DNA of 58,916 bases from Bacillota bacterium. Its GTDB lineage: Bacteria > Bacillota > Clostridia > Peptostreptococcales > Anaerovoracaceae. The first letter of the stretch is position 1; every line of letters begins with the position of its first letter. The position numbers were made by a program, and so were the translations under genes. Shown one piece after another: positions 26,551-56,203 of the stretch. The notes beneath the pieces are model-generated. The model was not told where the DNA came from and searched no databases. It was given only the letters and a program-made list of their open reading frames with translations. The stretch covers positions 1 through 58,916 of the forward strand of contig JAFRVY010000059.1 in assembly GCA_017438285.1 (NCBI GenBank). The letters run 5' to 3'.

Positions 26551-27207
26551 TTAGGTCTCATCATACGGCTTCAGGTCCGGTGACCAGATGAGAGGTACGC
26601 CAGTTGCTTCCTGAACTTCTTCCTTCGTATAGTCAGGGTGAAGTTCTGTTACAACGATACCTTCATCTGTAACCTTCATAACTGCCATTTCTGTGATGAT
26701 GTCGGTAACGCACTTTTCTGCTGTCAGCGGAAGAGTACATTCCTTCTTGATCTTGTGATTGCCCTTCTGTGTGTGAAGCATCGTGATGATTACTTCAGGA
26801 CAACCTACGCAAAGGTCCATGGCGCCGCCCATGCCGGCAACTTTCTTGCCAGGCACGATCCAGTTCGCCAGGTCGCCGTTCTCAGCAACTTCCATAGCTC
26901 CGAGAACTGTAGCCTTTACGTGCCCGCCTCTGACCAGACCGAAAGATTCAGCCGTATCAAAGAACTTTGCTCTAGGAAGAACAGTTACATACTGTCCACC
27001 TGAGTTGATGATGTTTACATCGAGAGTGTCTGCGTCTGCAAGCACATCGATTCCTGCGAATCCGTTTTCGGAGTGGCAAGTGATGATGACATCTTCAGGA
27101 AGATAGTCAGCAACCATTGTAGGAAGACCGATTCCGAGGTTGATGAAGTCACCGTCTTCGAAGTGCTTCGCGCATCTTTTTGCGATTCTTTCTTTTAAAT
27201 CTGCCAT
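26551..27207 (-). CDS. atoA: Acetoacetate:butyrate/acetate CoA-transferase subunit beta
   Basis: 218 residues, the normal size. Beta-subunit motifs: NLGIGLPTMVADYLP, the catalytic glutamate in CHSENGFAG, and PGKKVAGMGGAMDL. With the alpha subunit it moves CoA from butyryl-CoA (or acetyl-CoA) onto acetoacetate; in lysine fermentation this activates the acetoacetate released by Kce and yields butyrate. Last gene of the operon; its start overlaps atoD by 13 bases and has GGAAGGAG. Confidence 0.92.
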   Translation of the reverse strand: MADLKERIAKRCAKHFEDGDFINLGIGLPTMVADYLPEDVIITCHSENGFAGIDVLADADTLDVNIINSGGQYVTVLPRAKFFDTAESFGLVRGGHVKATVLGAMEVAENGDLANWIVPGKKVAGMGGAMDLCVGCPEVIITMLHTQKGNHKIKKECTLPLTAEKCVTDIITEMAVMKVTDEGIVVTELHPDYTKEEVQEATGVPLIWSPDLKPYDET

Positions 27208-27920
27208 GCCGGTTCTCCTTCCACGATTGATTCAACCAGTACGCCGGCTACCTGCCAGATGTCAGGGTTCTCTGTGCCGACTGGAACCAGTTTCTCTGCT
27301 GCAATAACGGTGTGGTCGGAAGCTCCGGCCATTACGATGTTGAAGTTTCTCGTTGCCTTTGAGCACATGTAGTTGCCAAACTCGTCAGCCATGGATGCTC
27401 TGATGAATGAGTAGTCTGCGTGAAGCGGTCTTTCGAAGAGGTATTTCTTACCGTCGATTTCCATAACTTCCTTCTTTCTGCCCAGTTCATCAAGGTCAGT
27501 TTCCATAGGTGTTCCGAGTCCTACCGGAGTAAGAACTCCGCCAAGACCATAAGCTGCTGCTCTGATCTTTTCTGCCAGTGTTCCCTGCGGTACCAGAGTG
27601 TACTTCAGGCTTCCGTCAGCAAACTGCTCGTTCAGACGAGGGTTTACGCCGACGTGTGACATAATTACGTGGTCTACCATGTGGTGCTCGAGGAGCTTGC
27701 CGATTCCTCTAGGAGTCTTACCGGCAAATTCACCAGCCGGCTGGCCTTCTGCCAGTCCGCCATCGTTACCGATAACTGTCAGATGCTTTACGCCTTTTCT
27801 TACGAGTGCATCCATGAGGACTTCAGGGGATCCTGTTCCCAGGAATCCGCCGACCATGATGGTCATGCCGTCCTGTACACCAGCTACCGCTTCATCAGCT
27901 GTTACGATTTTGTTGAACAT
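27195..27920 (-). CDS. atoD: Acetoacetate:butyrate/acetate CoA-transferase subunit alpha
   Basis: 241 residues of the type I CoA-transferase alpha subunit: IVTADEAVAGVQDGMTIMVGGF at the start, NDGG and the GGVLTPVGLGT loop. Forms an alpha2beta2 enzyme with AtoA. AAAGG before the ATG. Placed after kamE, 42 bases away, in the lysine operon. Confidence 0.92.
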   Translation of the reverse strand: MFNKIVTADEAVAGVQDGMTIMVGGFLGTGSPEVLMDALVRKGVKHLTVIGNDGGLAEGQPAGEFAGKTPRGIGKLLEHHMVDHVIMSHVGVNPRLNEQFADGSLKYTLVPQGTLAEKIRAAAYGLGGVLTPVGLGTPMETDLDELGRKKEVMEIDGKKYLFERPLHADYSFIRASMADEFGNYMCSKATRNFNIVMAGASDHTVIAAEKLVPVGTENPDIWQVAGVLVESIVEGEPAWQI

Positions 27921-27962: not shown

Positions 27963-28733
27963 TTATATCATGTTCCTCTTTACGATTTCTGTCAAGACGA
28001 ATGATGCAACATCTTCAGCATACTTGTGCTGTCCGAAACCTGCATCATAACCAAGTTCCTGAGCCAGTTCGTGTGAGATTCTCGGTCCGCCGCAAACCAG
28101 GATGACCTTGTCTCTCATTCCTTCTGCTTCCAGAAGTTCGACCATGTTCGTCAGGTTCTGGATGTGGATATCCTTCTGCGTTACAGTCTGTGAAACGAGA
28201 ATTGCATCCGCGTTCAGTTCCTTGGCGTGAGCAATGAGGTCTTCGTTAGGAACCTGTGATCCGTAGTTATAAGCTTCGATGCCTTCAAATCTCTCAAGAC
28301 CGAAGTGGCCGTGGAAGCCCTTCATGTTCATGATAGCATCGATACCTACAGTGTGGGCATCTGTACCCGTTGAAGCTCCGACGATAACAACAGGTCTCTT
28401 GATGTTTTCCTTGATGTACTCTGCGCACTCAAGTCTGTCCATGACATCAACTTCGACCTTCGCGACCTTGATGGTCGTGTAGTCGACTGTGTGCTGGCAC
28501 TTGCCGTATACTACGAAGAATGTATACTCCGGAGTCATTGCCTTTGAATAAACTACGTTCGGCTCGTCAAGGCCCATCTTCTTTGCCAGGATCTTTGCTG
28601 CTTCATTAGCTTCGTCACCGTAAGGAACAGGAAGAGTGAAAGCAACTTCTGTCATACCATCGTTAAGCGTGTCGCCATATGGCTTTACTTTTGTCAGATC
28701 GATCTGAGCTACTGCTGTATTGCATTCTGCCAT
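27963..28733 (-). CDS. kamE: Lysine 5,6-aminomutase beta subunit (B12-binding)
   Basis: 256 residues. The Rossmann-type cobalamin domain has the base-off motif DAHTVG, with His127 as the predicted cobalt ligand. Lys138 lies 11 residues further on, matching the spacing of His133 and the PLP-bound Lys144 in the Clostridium sticklandii enzyme. With KamD it moves the amino group of beta-lysine (or D-lysine) from C6 to C5 using adenosylcobalamin and PLP. Its ATG overlaps the kamD stop by one base (TAATG). Confidence 0.95.
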   Translation of the reverse strand: MAECNTAVAQIDLTKVKPYGDTLNDGMTEVAFTLPVPYGDEANEAAKILAKKMGLDEPNVVYSKAMTPEYTFFVVYGKCQHTVDYTTIKVAKVEVDVMDRLECAEYIKENIKRPVVIVGASTGTDAHTVGIDAIMNMKGFHGHFGLERFEGIEAYNYGSQVPNEDLIAHAKELNADAILVSQTVTQKDIHIQNLTNMVELLEAEGMRDKVILVCGGPRISHELAQELGYDAGFGQHKYAEDVASFVLTEIVKRNMI

Positions 28734-30289
28734 TATTCTGCACCTCCTAACATAAGTGGAATGAACGGATTGAAGTATTCATCATCCTTGACGCAAACGC
28801 CTGCCAGGCCCTTTCCGCCGTCTCTAGGTCTCTTAACGCCGCCGAACCTGCCCTGCTCGATCGTGGAGAAGAGTCCTTCTTCTACGATCTCTTCGAGGAG
28901 CTTGTCAGCCTTGTCGAGTACCAGCTGAGCTCTTGACTGGATGATTCCGCCTTCCTTGTATTCCATTTCGGAACCGATGTCTCTCATGTTGTTGAAGATG
29001 TACTGTGCATTTTCAATGGAGAGATATCTGTCGTGCATGTGCGGTGTGTGGATAGCTTCTGTCAGCATACCGAGCAGCTGCAGTGACTGTCCTGACCAGA
29101 TTGCGATCATGTTGAACAGCGCATCCTGTACGTTGCCCTTGAAGATGTTTCCGGTCATGTACTTTGTAGGCGGCATGTACTTCAGAGGAGCGTTCGGGAA
29201 GATCTCTCTTGCCATGATAGCCTGTGCCAGCTCATAGAGGAATCCGTTCTCAATGTCAGGATCCATCTCGAATGCGTGGCCGAGACCCATCTGCTCTTCT
29301 TTTACATTTGCCAGTACTGCGAACTGTTCGTTGATCAGCTGTGAAGCCAGAACCGTGTGCGCATTTTCAAATGCATCATCTGTGGTCAGATAGTTATCTT
29401 CACCTGAGTTAAAGATGATGTCGCAGTAACCGATGATTACTCTTGAGAAATACTGGTCAACCAGAGTTCTCTGCATGTTGATATCTCTGAACAGGATACC
29501 GTAAAGTGCGTCGTTGAGCATTACGTCCAGTCTTTCGATAGCGCCCATTGCAGCGATCTCAGGCATGCACATTCCTGATGAGTAGTTACAGAGTCTGATG
29601 TATCTGCCAACTTCTTCGCCAACTTCGTCGAGAGCCTTTCTCATGATTCTGAAGTTTTCCTGCGTTGCGTATGTTCCGCCGAAACCTTCTGTTGTTGGTC
29701 CGTAAGGTACGTAGTCGAGCAGTGACTGAGCAGTCGTTCTGATTACGGCGATGATGTCAGCACCCTGTCTAGCAGCAGCCTGTGCCTGAACAACGTCTTC
29801 GTAAATGTTACCTGTGGCAACGATGACATACAGATAAGGTCTTCTGCCCTCACCGATCGTAGCGAGATACTCGTTTCTCTTTTCGGTCTGCTTTCTGATT
29901 GTCTTTAATGCCTCGTGAACTCTAGGCATGATCTTAGCTTCAGCCTCTTCCTTGGAAGCCAGCGGCAACTTAGTCACGTCAAGATTTCCGGCAGCCATTT
30001 CCTCAGCGATCTCCTGCGGCTCTTTGCCTGTCTGGATCATTGCGTTTCCAATCCAGTAAGCAACGCCTCTTGGAAGTCCGCCTGCATCAAGGATCTGGTC
30101 TACCACTACGTTAGGCAGTGGAGTGTCAACCTCATCGACACCGTCTACGCCCAGCAGTCTGAGAATGGTTCTCTCGGTACTGACTGTAGTGTGTCTGTCG
30201 ATGAATTCCTGCATGCTGTGAGCGATCTTTGCAGCGCTCTGACGAGCATGATCAACCTTGTTAGGGTCCAGGTTCAGTTTACTTTTCAT
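28733..30289 (-). CDS. kamD: Lysine 5,6-aminomutase alpha subunit
   Basis: 518 residues, the family length. It is the TIM-barrel subunit that holds substrate and PLP and interacts with the adenosylcobalamin of KamE. Recognised by the N-terminal segment LNLDPNKVDHARQSAAKIA, VVATGNIYEDVVQAQAAARQG and the near-universal family sequence around TEGFGGTYATQENFR. ATG with AAGGAG, 12 bases after kamC. Translationally coupled to kamE. Confidence 0.95.
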   Translation of the reverse strand: MKSKLNLDPNKVDHARQSAAKIAHSMQEFIDRHTTVSTERTILRLLGVDGVDEVDTPLPNVVVDQILDAGGLPRGVAYWIGNAMIQTGKEPQEIAEEMAAGNLDVTKLPLASKEEAEAKIMPRVHEALKTIRKQTEKRNEYLATIGEGRRPYLYVIVATGNIYEDVVQAQAAARQGADIIAVIRTTAQSLLDYVPYGPTTEGFGGTYATQENFRIMRKALDEVGEEVGRYIRLCNYSSGMCMPEIAAMGAIERLDVMLNDALYGILFRDINMQRTLVDQYFSRVIIGYCDIIFNSGEDNYLTTDDAFENAHTVLASQLINEQFAVLANVKEEQMGLGHAFEMDPDIENGFLYELAQAIMAREIFPNAPLKYMPPTKYMTGNIFKGNVQDALFNMIAIWSGQSLQLLGMLTEAIHTPHMHDRYLSIENAQYIFNNMRDIGSEMEYKEGGIIQSRAQLVLDKADKLLEEIVEEGLFSTIEQGRFGGVKRPRDGGKGLAGVCVKDDEYFNPFIPLMLGGAE

Positions 30290-30301: not shown

Positions 30302-31939
30302 TTATACAATATACTGTTTAGCCTTTTCTATAATGCTATTGTCGATGCCGAGCATCTTAGCAATGTTCAAGGCATCTTTAGGGATCTGGGTCGCATTGTC
30401 GACGCGCTGGAGTCTGTAATCCATGTACTTCTGGATGATGTTGATCCTTTCGCGCCTGTTGGCGTACCTGATCTCCCTGTTAAGTTTTTCGAAGTCCACA
30501 TTCGCAAGCCCCGTTACCTGCATGTTGACGACATCCTTATCCTCTGTGACCGTCTCGAAGTGAGTGGTGATGAGCGATATGATCGTCTGATGTTTCAGGT
30601 AATCTACGATGCTCTTCGTGAGCGCCAGTCCCTCTACCGGGTTCGTCCCGCTGGCGATCTCATCAATGAGCAAAAGGGATCTGTCCTTGCTGTTGTCGAT
30701 GATTTCCTTCAGCTCCTCCATCTCGCTTCCGAAGCTCGACAGTCCCCTTTCGATGGACTGACTGTCTCCGATGAGAATCTGCATGAAGTTGCTGAGACCG
30801 ACTTTCGCTCTGCTGCAAGGAACGAAGTAACCATACTGGGCGAGAATCGCGACCATGCCTACGAGCTTCAGGGAAACCGTCTTGCCTCCCATGTTGGCTC
30901 CCGTGATGCAAGTCACGCCGTCAGCAAGTGAAATGCTGACCGGACAGTACTCTCCACCCTTTTTCTTGATGATCTCTTCGACCTGCAAATGCCTTCCGTC
31001 CTCGAATTCCACGATGTGTTCCTTGACGATCTCCGGCTTGACGCAGCTGTGTGCTGCCGCATACAGAGCCTTTGCGAGAATGATGTCAAGTCTTCCAATA
31101 CGGTCGCAGTTTTCGAGAAGCAATGCAGAGTGTTTGTGGATCTCCTTCGACAGTCGCTCTCTCACGACCAGTTCCTCTTCTTCGATGTCCGCCGTCAGAT
31201 CATCCAGTTTGAGCATGAGCTGACGGACCTCATCATCGGGAACCAGCGTGTAGGTGACCGACATATAGTCTTCGTCCGATTTCGATAAATCGGCAATCTC
31301 TTCTATCATTTTTATACCGGCGCTGTCGCTCTTCGAAACCGTAATGTCGAATTTCGGCGTAAGTGACAGTCCGTGCTTTTCCTTGATCTCGTTTCTCAAA
31401 GCCTTTTGACGACTTCTGATTTCCCTTTCCATGTTCCTTTTTTCTCGTCTCAGCTCTGCGAGCTTTTCGGAGAATGAATCATAGATGTAAAACGTGTTGA
31501 GTCTGTCACCGCTTGGGTCGAGTATGTCCAGAAGTTCGTTGACTGTGTCCGGCACGTACTCGGCAGGAAGGTCGATCTTCGTGCTTAAGGTCCTGACCTT
31601 CTCCATGAGCAGCATTAGGTTCTTGAGTTCAAAGATCTCGACGACAGACAATACAGAGTGTTCCGTTCTCTCGATCGTGAACGTATTGTCTTTCATCATC
31701 ATGAAGGTTTCCTGCAAAACGCCGATGTCGCTTTTGTTTGCGGCTGCCGTTTCCACCATCCGCTCTATGCGGTCCAGTTCCTCCTCCAGGGCCTCCTCCT
31801 GGCCCGGGAAGAAAGGCTTTTGTTCCTTGATCTGCTTCGTGCCGAACGGCGTCTGCAGATTCATGGCTCCGATCACATAGTCCAGCCCCGTTTCGCGTCT
31901 CGTTTTGGGATTTGCCAGTCTGAGTATTCTCGTTGACAT
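30302..31939 (-). CDS. kamC: MutS-like ATPase, lysine 5,6-aminomutase reactivase subunit
   Basis: 545 residues with a C-terminal MutS-type ABC ATPase: Walker A GANMGGKTVSLKL, Walker B SLLLIDEIASGTNP and the following TTHFETV switch. It lacks the MutS mismatch-binding domain, so it is not a repair protein. In lysine-fermenting clostridia the MutS-like KamC acts with KamB to restore 5,6-aminomutase that has lost or damaged its coenzyme. Gene order kamA-B-C-D-E is the usual one. GGAGGAG precedes the ATG. Confidence 0.88.
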   Translation of the reverse strand: MSTRILRLANPKTRRETGLDYVIGAMNLQTPFGTKQIKEQKPFFPGQEEALEEELDRIERMVETAAANKSDIGVLQETFMMMKDNTFTIERTEHSVLSVVEIFELKNLMLLMEKVRTLSTKIDLPAEYVPDTVNELLDILDPSGDRLNTFYIYDSFSEKLAELRREKRNMEREIRSRQKALRNEIKEKHGLSLTPKFDITVSKSDSAGIKMIEEIADLSKSDEDYMSVTYTLVPDDEVRQLMLKLDDLTADIEEEELVVRERLSKEIHKHSALLLENCDRIGRLDIILAKALYAAAHSCVKPEIVKEHIVEFEDGRHLQVEEIIKKKGGEYCPVSISLADGVTCITGANMGGKTVSLKLVGMVAILAQYGYFVPCSRAKVGLSNFMQILIGDSQSIERGLSSFGSEMEELKEIIDNSKDRSLLLIDEIASGTNPVEGLALTKSIVDYLKHQTIISLITTHFETVTEDKDVVNMQVTGLANVDFEKLNREIRYANRRERINIIQKYMDYRLQRVDNATQIPKDALNIAKMLGIDNSIIEKAKQYIV

Positions 31940-31948
31940 TGTCTCCTC

Positions 31949-32962
31949 CTACATTCTAACGTCAATAACAGGGATGTCGGGTATAGCCTTTTGCATGGCG
32001 TTCACAAGTTCTTCGTGGTCGAACATATATCCGCTCGGTGATGTCGGGTTGACAGTCACTGCTGCAACCGGGATGTTCTCCAGAACCTTTACGGTGAGTC
32101 CCTTTTTCCTAAGCTGATTCCACATGGTCGCGCCGATAAAGATCTTCGTCGGATCCTTGAGGACGAATGTGATATGTTTCAGCTTCTTCGGGTTAATGTC
32201 AGCGATGACGCTGTGTGTAAAAGCTCCCGGAACAAATACATGTGTGACGGTCTCATCGATCTCGGCATCCAGGTATTTGCCTGCGCCGAGGCCCGTACTC
32301 CTGTCGAGTACAACGAGCTCGTCCTCTTTGATGAGCATGATCTGTTCGCCATTTGTTTCGGTCAACAAATTCCTCTCCCGTCCATCTTCGAGACACGGAA
32401 GGCGGTAGAGGCCGACGGTGTGCGCCGTCTCCTCTACGACCTTACTCATTTTTCTCGATAAAACCGCTCCTGTGGACAGGATGATCGCATCCGATGTTTC
32501 TGGTGCTGCGATAGATTTCCGGTCTATCGCACCATCTATAAGCACCAGGTCCGCACCTAACCGAAGCATTTCTTCGCACATCTCTATGTGCTGGGCATTG
32601 ATTACCGGCCCGGCGATCTGAACGTATCCGCTGTCGACGACTCTGCAAAGGAGGATAGGTCCAAGCGAAGAGCCGTACTGGGTCATTCTGATGATTTCGA
32701 GTCCGGCGTCAGCCAGTTCGTAGAGCTGCGTAGGCACCGATACGATAGTGCCGGTATCCAAGAATACGCGAGGCTTGTCAGTACCCGTGACAACGTCTGT
32801 TCCCTCTCCATCTCTGCCCGTCGAAGTGATGCCGAGGAGCAAATCCTCATCCATCGCTTCTTCGATCAGATAATTCAGCGCTGTAGTCTTGCCGGCGTTC
32901 TTCGCCATGCCGACTATGGATATTCTCTTGTATTCTCTGGATAATTCTTCTAACAGGTACAT
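31949..32962 (-). CDS. kamB: Lysine 5,6-aminomutase reactivase subunit KamB
   Basis: 337 residues. An N-terminal P-loop GMAKNAGKTTALNY (about 18-31) opens a nucleotide-binding domain with VLIDGAIDRKS. The C-terminal third is not recognised beyond this family. Position between kamA and the MutS-like kamC identifies it as KamB. The ATG lies 12 bases after the kamA stop and has no clear ribosome binding site, so translation is probably coupled to kamA. Confidence 0.85.
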   Translation of the reverse strand: MYLLEELSREYKRISIVGMAKNAGKTTALNYLIEEAMDEDLLLGITSTGRDGEGTDVVTGTDKPRVFLDTGTIVSVPTQLYELADAGLEIIRMTQYGSSLGPILLCRVVDSGYVQIAGPVINAQHIEMCEEMLRLGADLVLIDGAIDRKSIAAPETSDAIILSTGAVLSRKMSKVVEETAHTVGLYRLPCLEDGRERNLLTETNGEQIMLIKEDELVVLDRSTGLGAGKYLDAEIDETVTHVFVPGAFTHSVIADINPKKLKHITFVLKDPTKIFIGATMWNQLRKKGLTVKVLENIPVAAVTVNPTSPSGYMFDHEELVNAMQKAIPDIPVIDVRM

Positions 32963-32974
32963 TGAGCTAATTTC

Positions 32975-34234
32975 TTATTTCTTGTTTCTTTCGTGTCTCA
33001 GCAGATGTGCTGGTTCCATGGACATTCTCTCGCCCTGAGCCAGTCCTGCAACGCCTTCATAACGATAATCTTCAACGTTCTTGCAGTTCTCATAGCTGCA
33101 CTGCAGCTTAGGAAGCATTGTAGGCTCTGTGTAAGTAGTGATAACGCCTTCGTAGTTTCTCAGGATTACCTTATCTGGAGTCTGTGAAATTACATACTGA
33201 GGCATTACAGGAGTCTTGCCGCCGCCGCCAGGAGCGTCAACTACGAATGTAGGTACTGCATAACCTGAAGTGTGTCCTCTGAGTCCTTCGATGATTTCGA
33301 TACCCTTTGATACAGGTGTTCTGAAGTGTTCGATACCCAGTGACAGGTCGCACTGATAAATGTAGTACGGACGAACTCTGTTCTTGCAGCAGAGGTGTAC
33401 CAGGTTTCTCATTACATGAACGTCATCGTTAACTCCTCTGAGGAGTACTGACTGGTTTCCGAGAGGAATACCTGCGTCAGCCAGCTTTCTGCAAGCTTCT
33501 GCTGATTCAGGTGTGAATTCCTTAGGATGGTTGAAGTGAGTGTTCAGCCAGATTGGGTGATACTTCTTCAGCATGTCAACCAGCTCGTCAGTGATTCTCT
33601 GCGGCATAACTACAGGAGTTCTTGATCCGATTCTTACGATCTCAACGTGGTCGATCTTTCTCAGCTCGCTGATGATGTACTCGAGAACGTCAGTCTCTAC
33701 GCAGAGAGCGTCTCCGCCTGAAAGCAGAACGTCTCTTACAACAGGAGTTCTCTTGATGTAGTCGATGCAAGCGTTGATGTCTTCCATGCTTCTAGCGCCG
33801 TCAGTTTCGCCTGCGAGTCTTCTTCTTGTGCAGTGTCTGCAGTACATGGAGCACTGGTCAGTGATCAGGAAGAGAACTCTGTCCGGATATCTGTGAGTAA
33901 GTCCAGGAGCAGGTGAGTCTTCGTCTTCGTGAAGTGGGTCCAGCATGTCAGCTTCGCCTCTGTGAGTCTCAGCCAGTGTTGGAACAGCCTGCATTCTTAC
34001 CGGGCAGTTAGGATCGTCAGGATCCATCAGTGAAGCATAGTAAGGAGTGATGCCGACTCTGAAGCCGTCCATTACCTTAGTAATGTCTTCTTCTTCCTGT
34101 GGAGTCAGGTTAACTACCTGCTTGATCTTCTCTACTGAGTCCAGTCTGTTAGCGACCTGCCAATGCCAGTCGTTCCACTGTTCATCTGTTACATCCTTGA
34201 AAAGAGGGATGTCTTTCCAGTTTCTAATAGCCAT
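32975..34234 (-). CDS. kamA: L-lysine 2,3-aminomutase
   Basis: 419 residues. Radical SAM cluster motif C128-x3-C132-x2-C135 (CSMYCRHC), SAM motif LSGGDAL, and the PLP lysine in GGGGKTPVMPQY. It converts L-lysine to L-beta-lysine, the first step of lysine fermentation, with a [4Fe-4S] cluster, SAM, PLP and zinc. The C-terminal extension typical of clostridial KamA is present. AAAGGAG before the ATG; 48 bases after kdd. Confidence 0.96.
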   Translation of the reverse strand: MAIRNWKDIPLFKDVTDEQWNDWHWQVANRLDSVEKIKQVVNLTPQEEEDITKVMDGFRVGITPYYASLMDPDDPNCPVRMQAVPTLAETHRGEADMLDPLHEDEDSPAPGLTHRYPDRVLFLITDQCSMYCRHCTRRRLAGETDGARSMEDINACIDYIKRTPVVRDVLLSGGDALCVETDVLEYIISELRKIDHVEIVRIGSRTPVVMPQRITDELVDMLKKYHPIWLNTHFNHPKEFTPESAEACRKLADAGIPLGNQSVLLRGVNDDVHVMRNLVHLCCKNRVRPYYIYQCDLSLGIEHFRTPVSKGIEIIEGLRGHTSGYAVPTFVVDAPGGGGKTPVMPQYVISQTPDKVILRNYEGVITTYTEPTMLPKLQCSYENCKNVEDYRYEGVAGLAQGERMSMEPAHLLRHERNKK

Positions 34235-34282: not shown

Positions 34283-35344
34283 TTATGCATACATTTCTTC
34301 GAAGAGCTTTCTGAGACCTTCGTGCTCTCTCAGTTCCTGAAGAGTGATCTCAGCGTGACCCTTAGTGTATCCGTTACCAACGATCATGTTAACGTCCTTG
34401 CCAACGCCTTCTGCACCAAGAGCAGCCTTAGTGAAGCTTGTTGCCATTGAGAAGAAGTATACTGTACCGTCATCCTTACAGCTGAGGATGGAGCCCATCT
34501 CAGTGTTCTCGATGGATACGCAGTTGATAACTACGTCATACAGTTCGCCGTTAGTCAGTTCCATAGCCTTCTCATACATTCCAACTGCATCAGCAGCATC
34601 CATGTGGAAGTATTCGTCTGCCAGATCCAGAGCTCTAGCTCTGTCTTCTGATTTCTGTGAACCAGCTGCGCAAACTACCAGACCGGTAACGCCAGCTCTC
34701 TTCTTTGCTTCATACAGGCAGAGAAGACCTGACTTGCCGCCGCCGCCGATTACGAGAACTTTCTGTCCCTGCTGAACGAGCTTGCCAGTCTGTGCTGGAG
34801 CACCTGCAACGTCCAGTGCTGAAAGTGCGAGACCTTCCGGCATGTCATCAGGAAGCTTAGCATAGATACCGCTCTGGAAGAGGATAGCCTGTCCAGTGAT
34901 GTCAACCTGGTCGATTGCAGGTCTCATCTCGTGGATCTCTTCGATTACCAGCGGAGTCAGTGAAAGTGAAACCAGAGTTGCGATCTTGTCGCCAACCTTC
35001 AGGTCGCCCTTCCATTCAGGTCCGATTTCCTTAACTGTACCGATCAGCATTCCGCCTGAACCAGTCCAAGGGTTTTTGTGCTTTCCAGCCTTAGCAACGA
35101 TGTCCTTCATGCACTGTGCAACCTTGTCCTTTTCTTCCTGAGTTTCGATTTCAGCCGGCTTCTTGTTCAGAACCTGCTTGCAGATTTCTGTGAATGAAGC
35201 TGAGTCGATGTTCAGTGTCTTAACGTCGATCAGGATCTCGTTGTCATAGATTTCCATAGTGTTGTCGACAACGTCTGCTGGCTGCGGCAGAACGCCCTTA
35301 GGTGAGATAACTCTGTGTGTTCCGTACGGATTTCCTTTTTTCAT
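34283..35344 (-). CDS. kdd: L-erythro-3,5-diaminohexanoate dehydrogenase
   Basis: 353 residues. MDR-like dehydrogenase with NAD-binding glycine motif VIGGGGKSGLL (about 198-208). The N-terminus YGTHRVISPKGVLPQPA is family-specific. It oxidises 3,5-diaminohexanoate to 5-amino-3-oxohexanoate with NAD. First gene of the eight-gene operon, with AGGAGG and a sigma-54 promoter upstream. A degenerate copy of this whole enzyme forms the sensor half of the adjacent regulator. Confidence 0.95.
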   Translation of the reverse strand: MKKGNPYGTHRVISPKGVLPQPADVVDNTMEIYDNEILIDVKTLNIDSASFTEICKQVLNKKPAEIETQEEKDKVAQCMKDIVAKAGKHKNPWTGSGGMLIGTVKEIGPEWKGDLKVGDKIATLVSLSLTPLVIEEIHEMRPAIDQVDITGQAILFQSGIYAKLPDDMPEGLALSALDVAGAPAQTGKLVQQGQKVLVIGGGGKSGLLCLYEAKKRAGVTGLVVCAAGSQKSEDRARALDLADEYFHMDAADAVGMYEKAMELTNGELYDVVINCVSIENTEMGSILSCKDDGTVYFFSMATSFTKAALGAEGVGKDVNMIVGNGYTKGHAEITLQELREHEGLRKLFEEMYA

Positions 35345-35435
35345 GTTTTAGTTCCTCCTAAAATTATTTTGATAGCCTTCTAGCAAAGGCTTATGCCTTT
35401 GAACCAAAGGCTGCTTTAACGTGTCTATATAAAGT

Positions 35436-35451
35436 AGCAATATGTGTGCCA
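35436..35451 (-). promoter_or_regulatory. Sigma-54 (-24/-12) promoter of kdd
   Basis: On the minus strand TGGCACACATATTGCT, a full match to TGGCAC-N5-TTGCW with GG and GC 12 bases apart. Transcription should start near 35426, about 80 bases before the kdd ATG. Confidence 0.88.
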
Positions 35452-35587
35452 AAAAATTAACGCATTTCCGGAAGCCTTGCGGTTTCGTGCTCACAGCGAA
35501 TGGTTTTTTTGCAGATACAACAAAAGCCTGCCCGTGCCGTTCTTTTCATGCTTGATTATGCGTATTTCTGTGGGTTTATTCGTTTTT

Positions 35588-35603
35588 GAACCGTCTTCGG
35601 TTC
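35588..35603. promoter_or_regulatory. Candidate upstream activator site 1
   Basis: GAACCG-TCTT-CGGTTC, a perfect inverted repeat about 170 bases upstream of the kdd start of transcription. The same half-sites recur at 35621-35636 and 37758-37773. Confidence 0.78.
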
Positions 35604-35617
35604 TAAGCATAAGAAAA

Positions 35618-35639
35618 CGTGAACCGATAACGGTTCACG
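35618..35639. promoter_or_regulatory. Candidate upstream activator site 2 and terminator of the regulator gene
   Basis: CGTGAACCG-ATAA-CGGTTCACG, perfect inverted repeat with the same core as sites 1 and 3. It is followed by TTTT-C-TT on the minus strand and six T on the plus strand, so the hairpin can also end transcription of the regulator gene. Confidence 0.75.
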
Positions 35640-35668: not shown

Positions 35669-37741
35669 TTACTCGATTCCGTACTTGTTTTTCTTTCGTA
35701 CAAGCTGGGTCTGGGAGATGCCGATGGCCTTCGCCGTCTTCCTTGTAGACCCATATTTCTCACAAGCCTGCTGCAGGATACCCTTTTCGAAGGATTCAAC
35801 CATGCTCGTCAGATCGATATTTTCCTCGGCTGCGCGCTGCATTTGTCTGTCTACTTCTGAGGAATCCAGAATGTCTCCGCCAAGTTCCTTCATGACATCA
35901 AGCAGTGTGATTACATCGTTGGCACTTGCAATCATAAGCCTTTGCGTGACATTCTCAAGTTCTCTGATGTTGCCCGGCCAGTTGCAGTTTGCCATATATT
36001 CCTTGGCATCCTCATCGATGTATTTGGTGATGCCGAACTTCTCGTTGTACTTGCGGATGAAGTTGTCGATGAGCGGCGGAATGTCTTCTTTTCGTTCGTC
36101 CAGGGACGGCACGCTGATTGGGAATACATTGAGCCTGTAGTAGAGGTCGCGGCGAAAGCCTTTGCCCTTGACCTGTTCCTCCAGATCCCGGTTGGTGGCG
36201 GATATGATTCGGACGTTGGTCTTAATCGGTTTGGTGCCTCCAACTCGCATGAATTCGCCGTCCTGAATGACCCTGAGCAGCTTGGCCTGAATGTCCATCG
36301 GCAGTTCGCCGACCTCATCGAGGAATATGATGCCGCCCTCGGCAACCTCAAAATAGCCTCTCTTGCCCTTAGCGTCAGCGCCTGTGAACGCACCTTTTTC
36401 ATAGCCAAAGAACTCAGATTCCATGAGGTTTGGCGGAATCGACGCACAGTTGATCTTGACAAAAGGCTGCATCTTGCGTGAGCTGTTTTTCTGTATGATA
36501 TTGGCAACCTTTTCCTTACCGACACCAGTCTCTCCTGTAATCAGGACATTACAATCGTAACGGGAAACACTCATGATTTCGTCCAGTACGGTCAGCATCT
36601 TTCTGCTGACTGCAACCAGATCCTCGGCCGTAGAAATATCGTAGTGATTGTGATGGTCGAAGATAGCCTTGTCTGTCTCAGACCTGTAGCCCTTGCGGCG
36701 GATCTCCTCGCGGTTTACGAGGGTGTTTTCGATGTATGGAGCAATGCCTCTAACGATATCGAAGTCGTACTCGTCGTACTCCTCCAGATACCCTTCAGCA
36801 CATGTGATCTTAATGTCTCTGGAAATGGCTTCCGTGATATAAAGGGCCATGTTGTAATTACTCATGAAGTTAGCAAACACAACGGTTCCGCCGGATCTGG
36901 TTGCCATGACGCTGACCGTCTCTGCACCGGGGATATCGGAACAGTTGACGACCATATCGATCTCCGGATATCCGCTGAAACTCCTTAGACAGGCCACCGG
37001 TTTCATCAGGTTGTGATAGGACACCTGAGAGAAGACCTGATTCATAATTACGTCTATGGATTCACCCTGCATCATGACCTCCGTATTGCGGTCAAAAACG
37101 CAGAGGATCTCAGCGTTCGGTCCGGCCGCCTCTTTGATGGCGTAGCCGTAGATCAGATTCATGAGCATGTTGTTGCCGATGACAGCAAACCGCTCTTTAC
37201 CGGCCGCTTCTCTACCTACTTTATATATGGTTCCTGATTCGTTGAGTACGAACATGAGGAGCTCGATCGGCATGTCTTTTGGCCTTTTGATGACCGGAAC
37301 ACCCGGCAGACAGATGGCATAACCCTCCGCGTCGAACTGCGGGAAGGTTTTGTCAATGGATGTGATGCTGTCGATGTACAAAGGTACGCCGGCAAGCGAC
37401 GAGTTGATGATGACCTCATCGCCGACCTTCAGGCCTTTGTCGTTCCTGAATTTACCGTCGATCTCTTCGATGACGCCGTAGAAGAGTCCGCCCGTGTCCG
37501 TGATCGGGTTGTGGAGCTTGCCTCTCCTGATGACGATGTCCTTGATTTTTTCTTTGATTAGGTCCTCATCGTTGGCGGCTTCCTGCAAAATCTGCCGGAA
37601 GCTGGTGTTTTCAACGTGCACCTTCCGGAGGCTGATTCTCATTTCACCCTCTTTGAGCGCGCTGCTGTTGTCCAGTTCCCACGCCGATGCCGGGAAGACC
37701 TGCTTCGGTGTGATGACTCTGTCGATTCCATAGGTGTTCAT
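35669..37741 (-). CDS. Sigma-54-dependent activator with Kdd-like (diaminohexanoate dehydrogenase) sensor domain
   Basis: 690 residues in three parts. Residues 1-340 align along their full length with Kdd (YGIDRVITPKQVFPAS vs YGTHRVISPKGVLPQP; GKLHNPITDTGG vs GKHKNPWTGSGG; LKVGDEV vs LKVGDKI), but the NAD glycine motif VIGGGGKSG has become VIGNNMLMN. Residues ~372-615 are an AAA+ domain with Walker A GETGVGKE (403-410), the sigma-54 contact loop GAFTGA (450-455) and Walker B IIFLDE. Residues ~650-690 form a Fis-type helix-turn-helix. It should sense a pathway intermediate and switch on kdd-kam-ato and kal. Divergent from kal, convergent with nothing. AGGAAAG before the ATG. Confidence 0.92.
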   Translation of the reverse strand: MNTYGIDRVITPKQVFPASAWELDNSSALKEGEMRISLRKVHVENTSFRQILQEAANDEDLIKEKIKDIVIRRGKLHNPITDTGGLFYGVIEEIDGKFRNDKGLKVGDEVIINSSLAGVPLYIDSITSIDKTFPQFDAEGYAICLPGVPVIKRPKDMPIELLMFVLNESGTIYKVGREAAGKERFAVIGNNMLMNLIYGYAIKEAAGPNAEILCVFDRNTEVMMQGESIDVIMNQVFSQVSYHNLMKPVACLRSFSGYPEIDMVVNCSDIPGAETVSVMATRSGGTVVFANFMSNYNMALYITEAISRDIKITCAEGYLEEYDEYDFDIVRGIAPYIENTLVNREEIRRKGYRSETDKAIFDHHNHYDISTAEDLVAVSRKMLTVLDEIMSVSRYDCNVLITGETGVGKEKVANIIQKNSSRKMQPFVKINCASIPPNLMESEFFGYEKGAFTGADAKGKRGYFEVAEGGIIFLDEVGELPMDIQAKLLRVIQDGEFMRVGGTKPIKTNVRIISATNRDLEEQVKGKGFRRDLYYRLNVFPISVPSLDERKEDIPPLIDNFIRKYNEKFGITKYIDEDAKEYMANCNWPGNIRELENVTQRLMIASANDVITLLDVMKELGGDILDSSEVDRQMQRAAEENIDLTSMVESFEKGILQQACEKYGSTRKTAKAIGISQTQLVRKKNKYGIE

Positions 37742-37756: not shown

Positions 37757-37774
37757 TGAACCGTTTTCGGTTCA
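37757..37774. promoter_or_regulatory. Candidate upstream activator site 3
   Basis: TGAACCG-TTTT-CGGTTCA, perfect inverted repeat with the same core as the two sites before kdd. It lies about 62 bases upstream of the predicted kal transcription start and in the 5' leader of the divergent regulator gene, so binding could both activate kal and limit the regulator's own expression. Confidence 0.78.
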
Positions 37775-37790: not shown

Positions 37791-37819
37791 ATAATAAACT
37801 ATTGGCATTGCTTTTGCAA
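37791..37819 (-). promoter_or_regulatory. Sigma-70-type promoter of the regulator gene
   Basis: On the minus strand TTGCAA (-35, 37814-37819), 17-base spacer, TATTAT (-10, 37791-37796). The self-complementary TTGCAA is at the same time the -12 element of the divergent sigma-54 promoter. Confidence 0.6.
37802..37819 (+). promoter_or_regulatory. Sigma-54 (-24/-12) promoter of kal
   Basis: TTGGCAT-TGCTT-TTGCAA with GG and GC 12 bases apart, a full match. Transcription should start near 37828, about 60 bases before the kal ATG. Confidence 0.85.
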
Positions 37820-37886
37820 TATATTAAAATAACAATAGTTAGTAATCCGCTTCGGCGGAGCGGTTAAATTGAAAAGGAGACAAGAC

Positions 37887-38276
37887 ATGGAAAAAATCAC
37901 TTCAACTTTAAGACTCAGAATGTCCGCAAAAGATGCTCACTATGGTGGAGAGCTGGTTGACGGAGCACACATGGTACACCTCTTTGGTGACGTAGCTACA
38001 GAGCTGCTCATCAAGCTGGACGGAGACGAAGGTCTCTTCTGCGCATATGACAACGTAGAATTCCTGGCTCCAACTTATGCCGGTGACTACATCGAAGCAT
38101 ATGGCGAGATCGATAAGATTGGCAACACTTCAAGACACATGAATTTCGAAGCAAGAAAGGTAATCGTTTCAAGAAAAGACATCAACGATTCAGCTGCTGA
38201 CTTCCTCGAAGAGCCAATCATCGTAGCAAGAGCTTCCGGAACTTGCGTAACTCCAAAGGAAATGAAGAGAAAATAA
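37887..38276 (+). CDS. kal: 3-aminobutyryl-CoA ammonia-lyase
   Basis: 129 residues, hotdog fold, of the clostridial Kal family; removes ammonia from L-3-aminobutyryl-CoA to give crotonyl-CoA. The ATG at 37887 has AAAGGAG; an upstream in-frame start at 37869 is not used. N-terminal [20 protein letters not shown] is family-typical, including the conserved histidine and aspartate region. Monocistronic on the plus strand, driven by its own sigma-54 promoter and ended by a strong terminator. The partner enzyme Kce that makes its substrate is not encoded here. Confidence 0.9.
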
Positions 38277-56038: not shown

Positions 56039-56079
56039 AATACTCACTTGAACGCAAAAACCGCGCTTGTCGTTTTCTT

Positions 56080-56203
56080 GTTTCTTCCATCCGGACTGTA
56101 ACCGTCGGTAAGGGATTCACACCCTTTCAGCCGAAGCTCGCGGACTTATAGCATTTTGCTCATCACCGCCGATGAGGACTTTCACCTCGCCCCGAAACAG
56201 ATT
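56080..56203 (-). ncRNA. FMN riboswitch (RFN element)
   Basis: On the minus strand it begins with TCGGGGCGAGGTGAAAGTCC and ends with AGTCCGGATGGAAGAA; both ends match the conserved RFN aptamer, as does GGGTGTGAATCCC...CGACGGTTA between them. Located upstream of ribU with a terminator between. Confidence 0.95.

Follow-up and report, generated by a model that had tools for sequence, protein, structure and literature searches.

At positions 35669-37741 on the minus strand of the 58,916-nucleotide stretch described here (contig JAFRVY010000059.1 of an Anaerovoracaceae bacterium, called the window), a reading frame that is open throughout encodes a regulator of 690 amino acids, in which a domain resembling L-erythro-3,5-diaminohexanoate dehydrogenase (Kdd), the product of the next gene, is joined to an AAA+ sigma-54 activator and a C-terminal helix-turn-helix (HTH). 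The N-terminal domain (residues 1-340; 36722-37741 (-)), which we propose to be a sensor, was recognised by BLASTP, hhalign, an NCBIfam model and comparison with PDB 7dl3; the Pfam matches all fall in the C-terminal half, namely Sigma54_activat at residues 376-542 (PF00158, 229.6 bits), AAA_lid_14 at 549-620 (PF25601) and HTH_50 at 642-689 (PF18024, 48.7 bits against a cut-off of 27). The AAA+ core and lid together span residues 372-620 (35882-36628 (-)), with the Walker A (GETGVGKE) and Walker B (GGIIFLDEVGEL) motifs both present and the GAFTGA loop that contacts sigma-54 at residues 450-455 (36377-36394 (-)); the HTH lies at 35675-35818 (-). The first-pass annotation of this DNA had spoken of AAA+ (GAFTGA) and Fis domains; the former are as described, but the HTH, although Fis-like, belongs to HTH_50, the Fis model HTH_8 reaching 15.5 bits, under its cut-off of 22. 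Together with the -24/-12 promoters and upstream sites described below, and with an rpoN gene in the window's own genome, these are the features of a bacterial enhancer-binding protein. The Pfam scan found no receiver domain in the regulator, which rules out a two-component regulator, agrees with the one-component character originally attributed to the protein and supports a one-component sigma-54 activator that would sense a small molecule on the same chain.

Profile comparison confirms that the first 332 or so residues are homologous to Kdd. BLASTP aligns residues 2-331 with the neighbouring Kdd over 346 columns (27% identity, 47% positives; E 2e-38), and the NCBIfam Kdd model NF052381 matches residues 5-171 with 122.8 bits (E 1.5e-35), a score well clear of the noise that does not reach the equivalog cut-off of 200, while the neighbouring Kdd itself scores 245.7 bits. 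When a profile of 23 fused N-terminal domains was compared with one of 23 Kdds, hhalign returned a probability of 100% and E 3.2e-43 over 326 columns, that is, common ancestry over nearly the whole chain; against the PDB the domain matches 7dl3 (E 1.4e-27), and in a search with its profile every hit up to E 1 is 3,5-diaminohexanoate dehydrogenase (3 distinct sequences). The Kdd-likeness of residues 1-340 claimed at the outset is thus borne out, and the motifs then named are present (GKLHNPITDTGG at 74-85, LKVGDEV at 104-110); the alignment with the adjacent Kdd is not strictly end to end, since the BLASTP match stops 14 residues before the Kdd C-terminus. The regulator shares with Kdd (NF052381; PDB 7dl3, 7dl0, 7dl1 and 7dl7) homology over residues 4-332, the N-terminal signature, GKxxNPxTxxGG and the equivalents of E310 and G323, but differs from the enzyme in its replaced glycine loop, its sub-threshold score and its fusion to an activator. 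Mean identity between fusions and Kdds falls along the domain, from 0.36 in residues 1-160 to 0.23 in 161-289 and 0.17 in 290-335; the first two segments we take to be the catalytic and Rossmann parts, after the boundaries of the medium-chain dehydrogenase/reductase fold. One fused regulator elsewhere (G055:C26:31439-31966, in locus L032) scores 201 bits with NF052381 and, being over the cut-off of 200, could be labelled a Kdd enzyme by automatic annotation.

Conservation was counted in thinned sets of 68 main-clade fusions and 80 Kdds. The retained Kdd signature GKLHNPITDTGG (residues 74-85; 37487-37522 (-)) has G74, K75, N78, P79, T81 and G85 in 68/68 fusions and in 80/80 Kdds (N78 in 78/80), and R8, G74, K75, P79, T81, G85, P120, G170, D262, E274, G285, E304 and G317 are invariant in both sets. 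In place of the nicotinamide adenine dinucleotide (phosphate), or NAD(P), loop of Kdd, GGGGKSG, the regulator has GNNMLMN (residues 189-195; 37157-37177 (-)), reading VIGNNMLMN where the enzyme reads VIGGGGKSG, and an intact glycine loop is accordingly absent. The replacement follows its own pattern across the main clade, GNN-[LM]-[LM]-x-N (N190 in 63/68, N191 in 59/68, N195 in 58/68), and at positions 193 and 195 the K and G found in 80/80 enzymes occur in 0/68 fusions. Because the new sequence is itself conserved, the loop appears to have been re-made rather than merely eroded; the motif had initially been called degraded, which is right as to its disappearance but not as to simple decay. 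Kdd A182, P183, A184, Q185 and K306, invariant in 27/27 enzymes, are also replaced in the window regulator and in most fusions, and catalysis has likely been lost in the window regulator.

The cofactor side is nevertheless subtler than was first assumed. Alignment with PDB 7dl3 places Kdd E310, which hydrogen-bonds the amide of NADPH, at regulator E304 (36830-36832 (-)), and Kdd G323, which adjoins the nicotinamide amide, at G317 (PMC9902596); among ten thinned fusions outside the main clade, position 304 is E in nine and D in one, and G317 is G in eight. In addition, five deep-branching fusions keep all or part of the glycine motif: it is full in L162 (VGAGGKIG; the same gene as L137) and L175 (MGANGKVG), and partial in L176 (MGASSKIG) and in L032 and L033 (LGAWTKLG). 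Other outlying fusions (L034-L036, L046, L047 and L177) lack it.

The regulator stands within a cluster of lysine-fermentation genes. Upstream and divergent lies kal, for 3-aminobutyryl-CoA ammonia lyase (37869-38276 (+), its ATG probably at 37887; NF052388, 187.3 bits); downstream, all on the minus strand, follow kdd (34283-35344), kamA for lysine 2,3-aminomutase (32975-34234; TIGR03820, 603 bits), kamB and kamC for the reactivase subunit and reactivase ATPase of lysine 5,6-aminomutase (31949-32962, NF052386, 378 bits; 30302-31939, NF052383, 586 bits), kamD and kamE for its alpha and beta subunits (28733-30289, NF052384, 919 bits; 27963-28733, NF052385, 407 bits), and atoD and atoA for the subunits of a CoA-transferase (26551-27920; TIGR02429 and TIGR02428). 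Both kdd, the enzyme paralogue of the sensor, and kal are predicted targets. The sole BKACE (kce-type) gene of the genome is on a different contig, and the 3.8 kb around it contain neither the palindrome nor the sigma-54 promoter described below. Three further sigma-54 activators are clearly recognisable elsewhere in the genome; their sensors are PAS or GAF and PAS domains, and one of these activators adjoins a partial gene resembling 2,4-diaminopentanoate dehydrogenase (350 bits, cut-off 400). Repeats of GCCTTTG/CAAAGGC are found in the kdd leader (35345-35430 (-)) and again in close relatives; the possibility that this leader folds into a regulatory RNA was rejected (z -1.0, not significant). 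At some distance, the window also holds a flavin mononucleotide (FMN) riboswitch (Rfam RF00050, 105 bits; 56075-56203 (-)).

Each of the two predicted targets has a sigma-54 promoter ahead of it, TTGGCACACATATTGCT before kdd (35436-35452 (-)) and TTGGCATTGCTTTTGCA before kal (37802-37818 (+)), and these are the only places in the window where TTGGCAY-N5-TTGCW occurs without mismatch; weaker matches carry no meaning, since 20 sites with up to two mismatches were found where 16 were expected. A pattern search located three enhancer-like palindromes, to which no strand is assigned: GAACCGTCTTCGGTTC (35588-35603) and, 33 bp from it, GAACCGATAACGGTTC (35621-35636) on the kdd side, and GAACCGTTTTCGGTTC (37758-37773) on the kal side, its centre 51 bp from the kal -12 element. 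In the 1.65 Mb of the draft genome GAACCN6GGTTC occurs five times without mismatch, three of them inside this 2.2-kb locus, and only those three (at 35588, 35621 and 37758) read GAACCG-N4-CGGTTC, a clustering that rules out chance. At one mismatch the pattern matches 60 places against 34 for a reversed control, and this many background sites do not allow a wider regulon to be called.

The same arrangement recurs among relatives. Of 87 distinct fused regulators, 52 sit exactly between kal and kdd, and kdd is the next gene in 62. Where a regulator in this position has GAFTGA (41 loci), both sigma-54 promoters are present in 36 and the kdd promoter only in 5; where it does not (11 loci), neither is present. 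The palindrome accompanies 70 of the 76 regulators beside kal or kdd, both those with GAFTGA (59/64) and those without (11/12). An activator that acts by looping needs helically phased sites, and the kdd-side distances from palindrome to -12 element (62 values, 73-234 bp) are phased with a period of 10.9 bp (R 0.65; 0/5000 random sets as high), also when one value per regulator is taken after thinning at 80% identity (n=28, R 0.61, 0/3000). Of 22 loci with two kdd-side palindromes, 21 have them spaced by 31-33 bp, and on the kal side the distance from palindrome to promoter is 51-52 bp in all 31 loci in which both elements were found, of 66 flanked by kal. From these conserved promoters and palindromes we predict that the regulated genes are those that lie behind them.

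We consider it probable that the protein is a pathway-specific one-component sigma-54 activator ('Kdd-EBP', for enhancer-binding protein) with a paralogue of the pathway enzyme Kdd as its sensor. In the established order of the pathway, KamA and KamDE turn lysine into beta-lysine and 3,5-diaminohexanoate (PMC3149608). In the mechanism that we propose, the substrate or product of Kdd would bind the retained pocket of the N-terminal domain, and binding would release or stimulate the AAA+ ring. The regulator, presumably bound at the GAACCG-N4-CGGTTC sites seen in the sequence, would loop to sigma-54 RNA polymerase and open the two promoters, and with them kal and a putative kdd-kamABCDE-atoDA operon. 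The true Kdd enzyme would then consume the inducer, so that the sensor might in effect read the load on the pathway, and the palindrome just upstream of the regulator's own start codon may provide autoregulation. We infer both the ligand and the sign of the response; 3,5-diaminohexanoate, 5-amino-3-oxohexanoate and beta-lysine are all plausible as the former.

Several observations weigh against this interpretation. Thinning the regulators at 70% identity weakens the phasing (n=16, a value reached by 147/3000 random sets), and at 60% it loses significance (n=6, 365/3000). In Clostridiales upstream sites usually lie at 100-250 bp (PMC6615313), and the kal-side palindrome, being closer to its promoter, may instead serve autoregulation. 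Six of 74 fusions with G[AS]FTGA (the first copies in L034 and L035, and L041, L047, L094 and L110) lack a good sigma-54 promoter within the DNA examined, and some fused paralogues lie away from kdd (L036, L046, L047 and L177). The fusion is not universal in the genus either, 7 of 37 genomes, several of them incomplete, having no match to the Kdd model. Finally, the segment that holds E304 and G317 (residues 290-335) is the least Kdd-like of the domain, so that the pocket may have changed, and these two kept residues belong to the cofactor site of Kdd, so that the cofactor rather than the substrate could be what is sensed.

This last point leads to the strongest of the alternatives, in which an altered Rossmann domain reports the balance of NAD(P)(H), or the redox state, with the pathway genes as output. 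The invariance of E304 and G317 in the main clade speaks for it, as does the full or partial GxxGxxG of the five deep-branching fusions; we nonetheless regard it as unlikely, given that the dinucleotide loop is gone throughout the main clade, window included, with the K and G that Kdd has at positions 193 and 195 absent from every main-clade fusion counted, and that residues 1-160 are the better conserved part. Paralogous domains can hetero-oligomerise, and with kdd so often the next gene the N-terminal domain might sense Kdd itself through mixed oligomers, substrate-free enzyme holding the activator down. This we think improbable: Kdd is 99-100% identical to the window's in L044, L048, L049 and L051 while the regulator N-terminal domains there are 68-84% identical, which gives no sign of a co-evolving interface, although in L053 the two values are close (84% against 80%). 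If the fused protein were a bifunctional trigger enzyme, still able to dehydrogenate 3,5-diaminohexanoate and signalling by way of turnover, the conserved active-domain residues and the glycine motif of some deep-branching fusions would be accounted for; this is very unlikely for the window regulator, which lacks the glycine loop and the five replaced Kdd residues, and a separate kdd follows the regulator in those 62 loci. The genome is a draft (1.65 Mb, 126 contigs, 80% complete), in which an error of assembly or sequencing might have merged two neighbouring genes; this possibility, and that of a chance similarity, are refuted by the profile-profile E-value and by fused frames in many of the profile-matching genomes of the family, single-contig ones included, and in named isolates, among them Emergencia timonensis and Clostridium aminobutyricum.

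Some relatives of the regulator appear to have abandoned sigma-54. The 87 regulators divide into 68 with both G[AS]FTGA and a promoter, 13 without either and 6 with the motif alone; a promoter without the motif does not occur. Among the 13, L036 carries NSFTGA, a single letter off the pattern, and is located away from kal and kdd, so that the true losses number 12; in these the loop is lost or rewritten, all 12 are beside kal or kdd and no sigma-54 promoter was found next to them, while all but one keep the palindrome. Of 39 genomes searched, 37 have rpoN; 11 of the 12 holders of GAFTGA-less regulators are among these, the genome of L081 being outside that search. Aminicella lysinilytica and Hornefia butyriciproducens belong to the relatives without GAFTGA. 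Thinning leaves 66 loci, 54 with motif and promoter and 12 with neither (Fisher p 2e-13, for related species that are not independent); on the tree each trait changes three times, giving 2-3 independent pairs, concordant where tested, for which a sign test is not significant. Truncated genes (L060, L107 and L131), near-identical N-terminal domains, and L042 and L099, where the gene filter had preferred longer frames overlapping the regulators, were left out of these counts. The different forms taken by the lost loop, together with the three changes on the tree, suggest that GAFTGA was lost more than once. By eye, several kal gaps of GAFTGA-less loci share TTTAC[AT]-N17-TAT[AA/AC]T, which is found also at some loci with GAFTGA (L095, L098, L116, L090 and L110). 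Replacement of the lost promoters by sigma-A promoters was considered, and a comparison of scores was not significant (kal p 0.13, kdd p 0.08). Precedents for a loss of GAFTGA with a shift to sigma-70 are TyrR as compared with PhhR (PMC1173090) and some NtrC proteins (PMC10274813); the 12 relatives share the loss of the loop with them, whereas the window regulator, unlike TyrR, keeps it.

Phylogenies of the Kdd domain agree with an origin by duplication and fusion, as had been proposed for this gene, in that one fusion event suffices on two trees. A carefully built tree of 68 selected rows explains the fusion label with one change; in it the 44 Kdd enzymes make up a single branch (support 100/99) and the fusions bearing the glycine motif are placed between the enzymes and the remaining fusions; in a quick tree of 158 rows (78 fusions and 80 Kdds, thinned at 93% from 211) the label again changes once (support 99). 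Neither root is fixed by an outgroup, so the order of enzyme, fusion and loop loss is one that we infer from function; several long branches were flagged by the program.

Matches to the fused-domain profile at E <=1e-95 occur in 141 of 296 genomes of the family and in 40 of 92 genera, and the fused frames among the matches listed are at least 678 amino acids long, except seven that are shorter. The class sample (391 genomes) has 31 Kdd-like matches and 7 fused frames, five in the family plus G861 and G927; the phylum sample (398 genomes) has 82 matches and 2 fused frames (G000 and G171); order-wide, 227 of 393 genomes match the Kdd model, fused and unfused together. Named holders among the best 80 of 590 matches comprise E. 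timonensis, Aminicella lysinilytica, Sinanaerobacter chloroacetimidivorans, Hornefia butyriciproducens, Bacilliculturomica massiliensis, [Eubacterium] infirmum and C. aminobutyricum, and no plasmid record gave a match covering 80% of the regulator. The disparity between near-identical Kdds and diverged regulators, greatest in L049 and L051 (Kdd 99% identical, N-terminal domain only 68%) and set beside the 84% and 80% of L053, may mean that kdd has been replaced or transferred separately from its regulator.

Other arrangements were seen as well. Two tandem kdd genes lie downstream of the fused regulator in L083, L085-L088, L092, L095, L098, L100, L104, L106, L116, L119 and L128, and in two genera from a different family of the order (L034:2258-6423 and L163:8071-12312) kamA is immediately preceded by a tandem pair of fused regulators. 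Divergent fused paralogues occur away from kdd (L164:4948-7011, L177:5923-8022, L166:7359-9428 and L167:5901-7985), next to tripartite ATP-independent periplasmic (TRAP) transporters and an amino acid permease in L164, a gene of the Na+/H+ antiporter family in L166 and, by eye, apparent aromatic-pathway genes in L167; these may sense other amino acids or beta-amino acids.

It is quite possible, though we would stop short of calling it probable, that these proteins form a living series, running from stand-alone Kdd through fusions with an intact NAD(P) loop that may be enzyme and regulator at once (L162 and L175) to the pure sensor with a re-made loop seen in the window and in Anaerovoracaceae, and then to descendants that would have kept sensor, DNA reader and palindromes while giving up sigma-54, probably on more than one occasion, in GAFTGA and promoter alike. 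With the NAD(P) loop disappearing step by step, and GAFTGA and sigma-54 promoters disappearing together in some relatives, both transitions, from enzyme to regulator and from sigma-54 to another sigma factor, could be studied experimentally at a single orthologous locus. For many sigma-54 activators of Clostridia the signal is unknown or has been guessed from neighbouring genes; here, because the sensor derives from Kdd, the choice narrows to the substrate, the product and the cofactor of a single known enzyme whose structures have been solved, which makes the prediction directly testable. The regulator is also a possible biosensor for intermediates of lysine fermentation, a butyrate-forming route.

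We found no description of a sigma-54 activator with a Kdd sensor in the open-licence literature searched. Enzyme-derived sensors as such are already known, from BzdR and from MocR/GabR. BzdR is reportedly not an AAA+ sigma-54 activator, and its parent enzyme is said to lie outside the regulated pathway. Like the Kdd-derived domain, its effector domain comes from an enzyme and has lost catalysis, but the parent is a different one, shikimate kinase (PMC3602430). MocR/GabR likewise fuse a sensor of enzyme fold, that of an aminotransferase, to a DNA-binding domain, the latter a GntR-type winged HTH; they depend on pyridoxal phosphate and are without AAA+ or sigma-54 (PMC5320631, PMC6917764). Lysine 2,3-aminomutase has been linked to sigma-54 before: a 2025 survey places it among the sigma-54 genes of Bacilli (PMC12316311), and KamR of Bacillus thuringiensis, which controls kamA through sigma-54, resembles our regulator in its position beside lysine 2,3-aminomutase genes and in its AAA+ and HTH layout, but its sensor is a PAS domain and not a pathway enzyme (PMC4428206). 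Ordinary activators beside kdd or kamA were found in at least 7 of 29 stand-alone-Kdd loci of the phylum sample, where flanks are short; these seven (L143, L145, L147, L150, L156, L159 and L161) belong to other families and are RocR-like by eye. A survey of Clostridiales describes 39 activator groups, OrdR and PrdR among them, and lists their sensor domains; neither Kdd nor any other dehydrogenase is among the regulatory domains given there, its Table 1 holds no lysine or kdd regulon, and its main text does not mention lysine, kdd or kamA (PMC6615313). The listing includes an iron-hydrogenase domain, so that enzyme-like sensors on activators are not new as such. The regulator described here shares with those groups, which are mostly one-component and in several cases serve amino-acid fermentation, the -24/-12 promoters and nearby upstream sites, and differs from them, as far as the sensor domains listed in the main text go, in having as its sensor a dehydrogenase domain derived from Kdd (PMC6615313).

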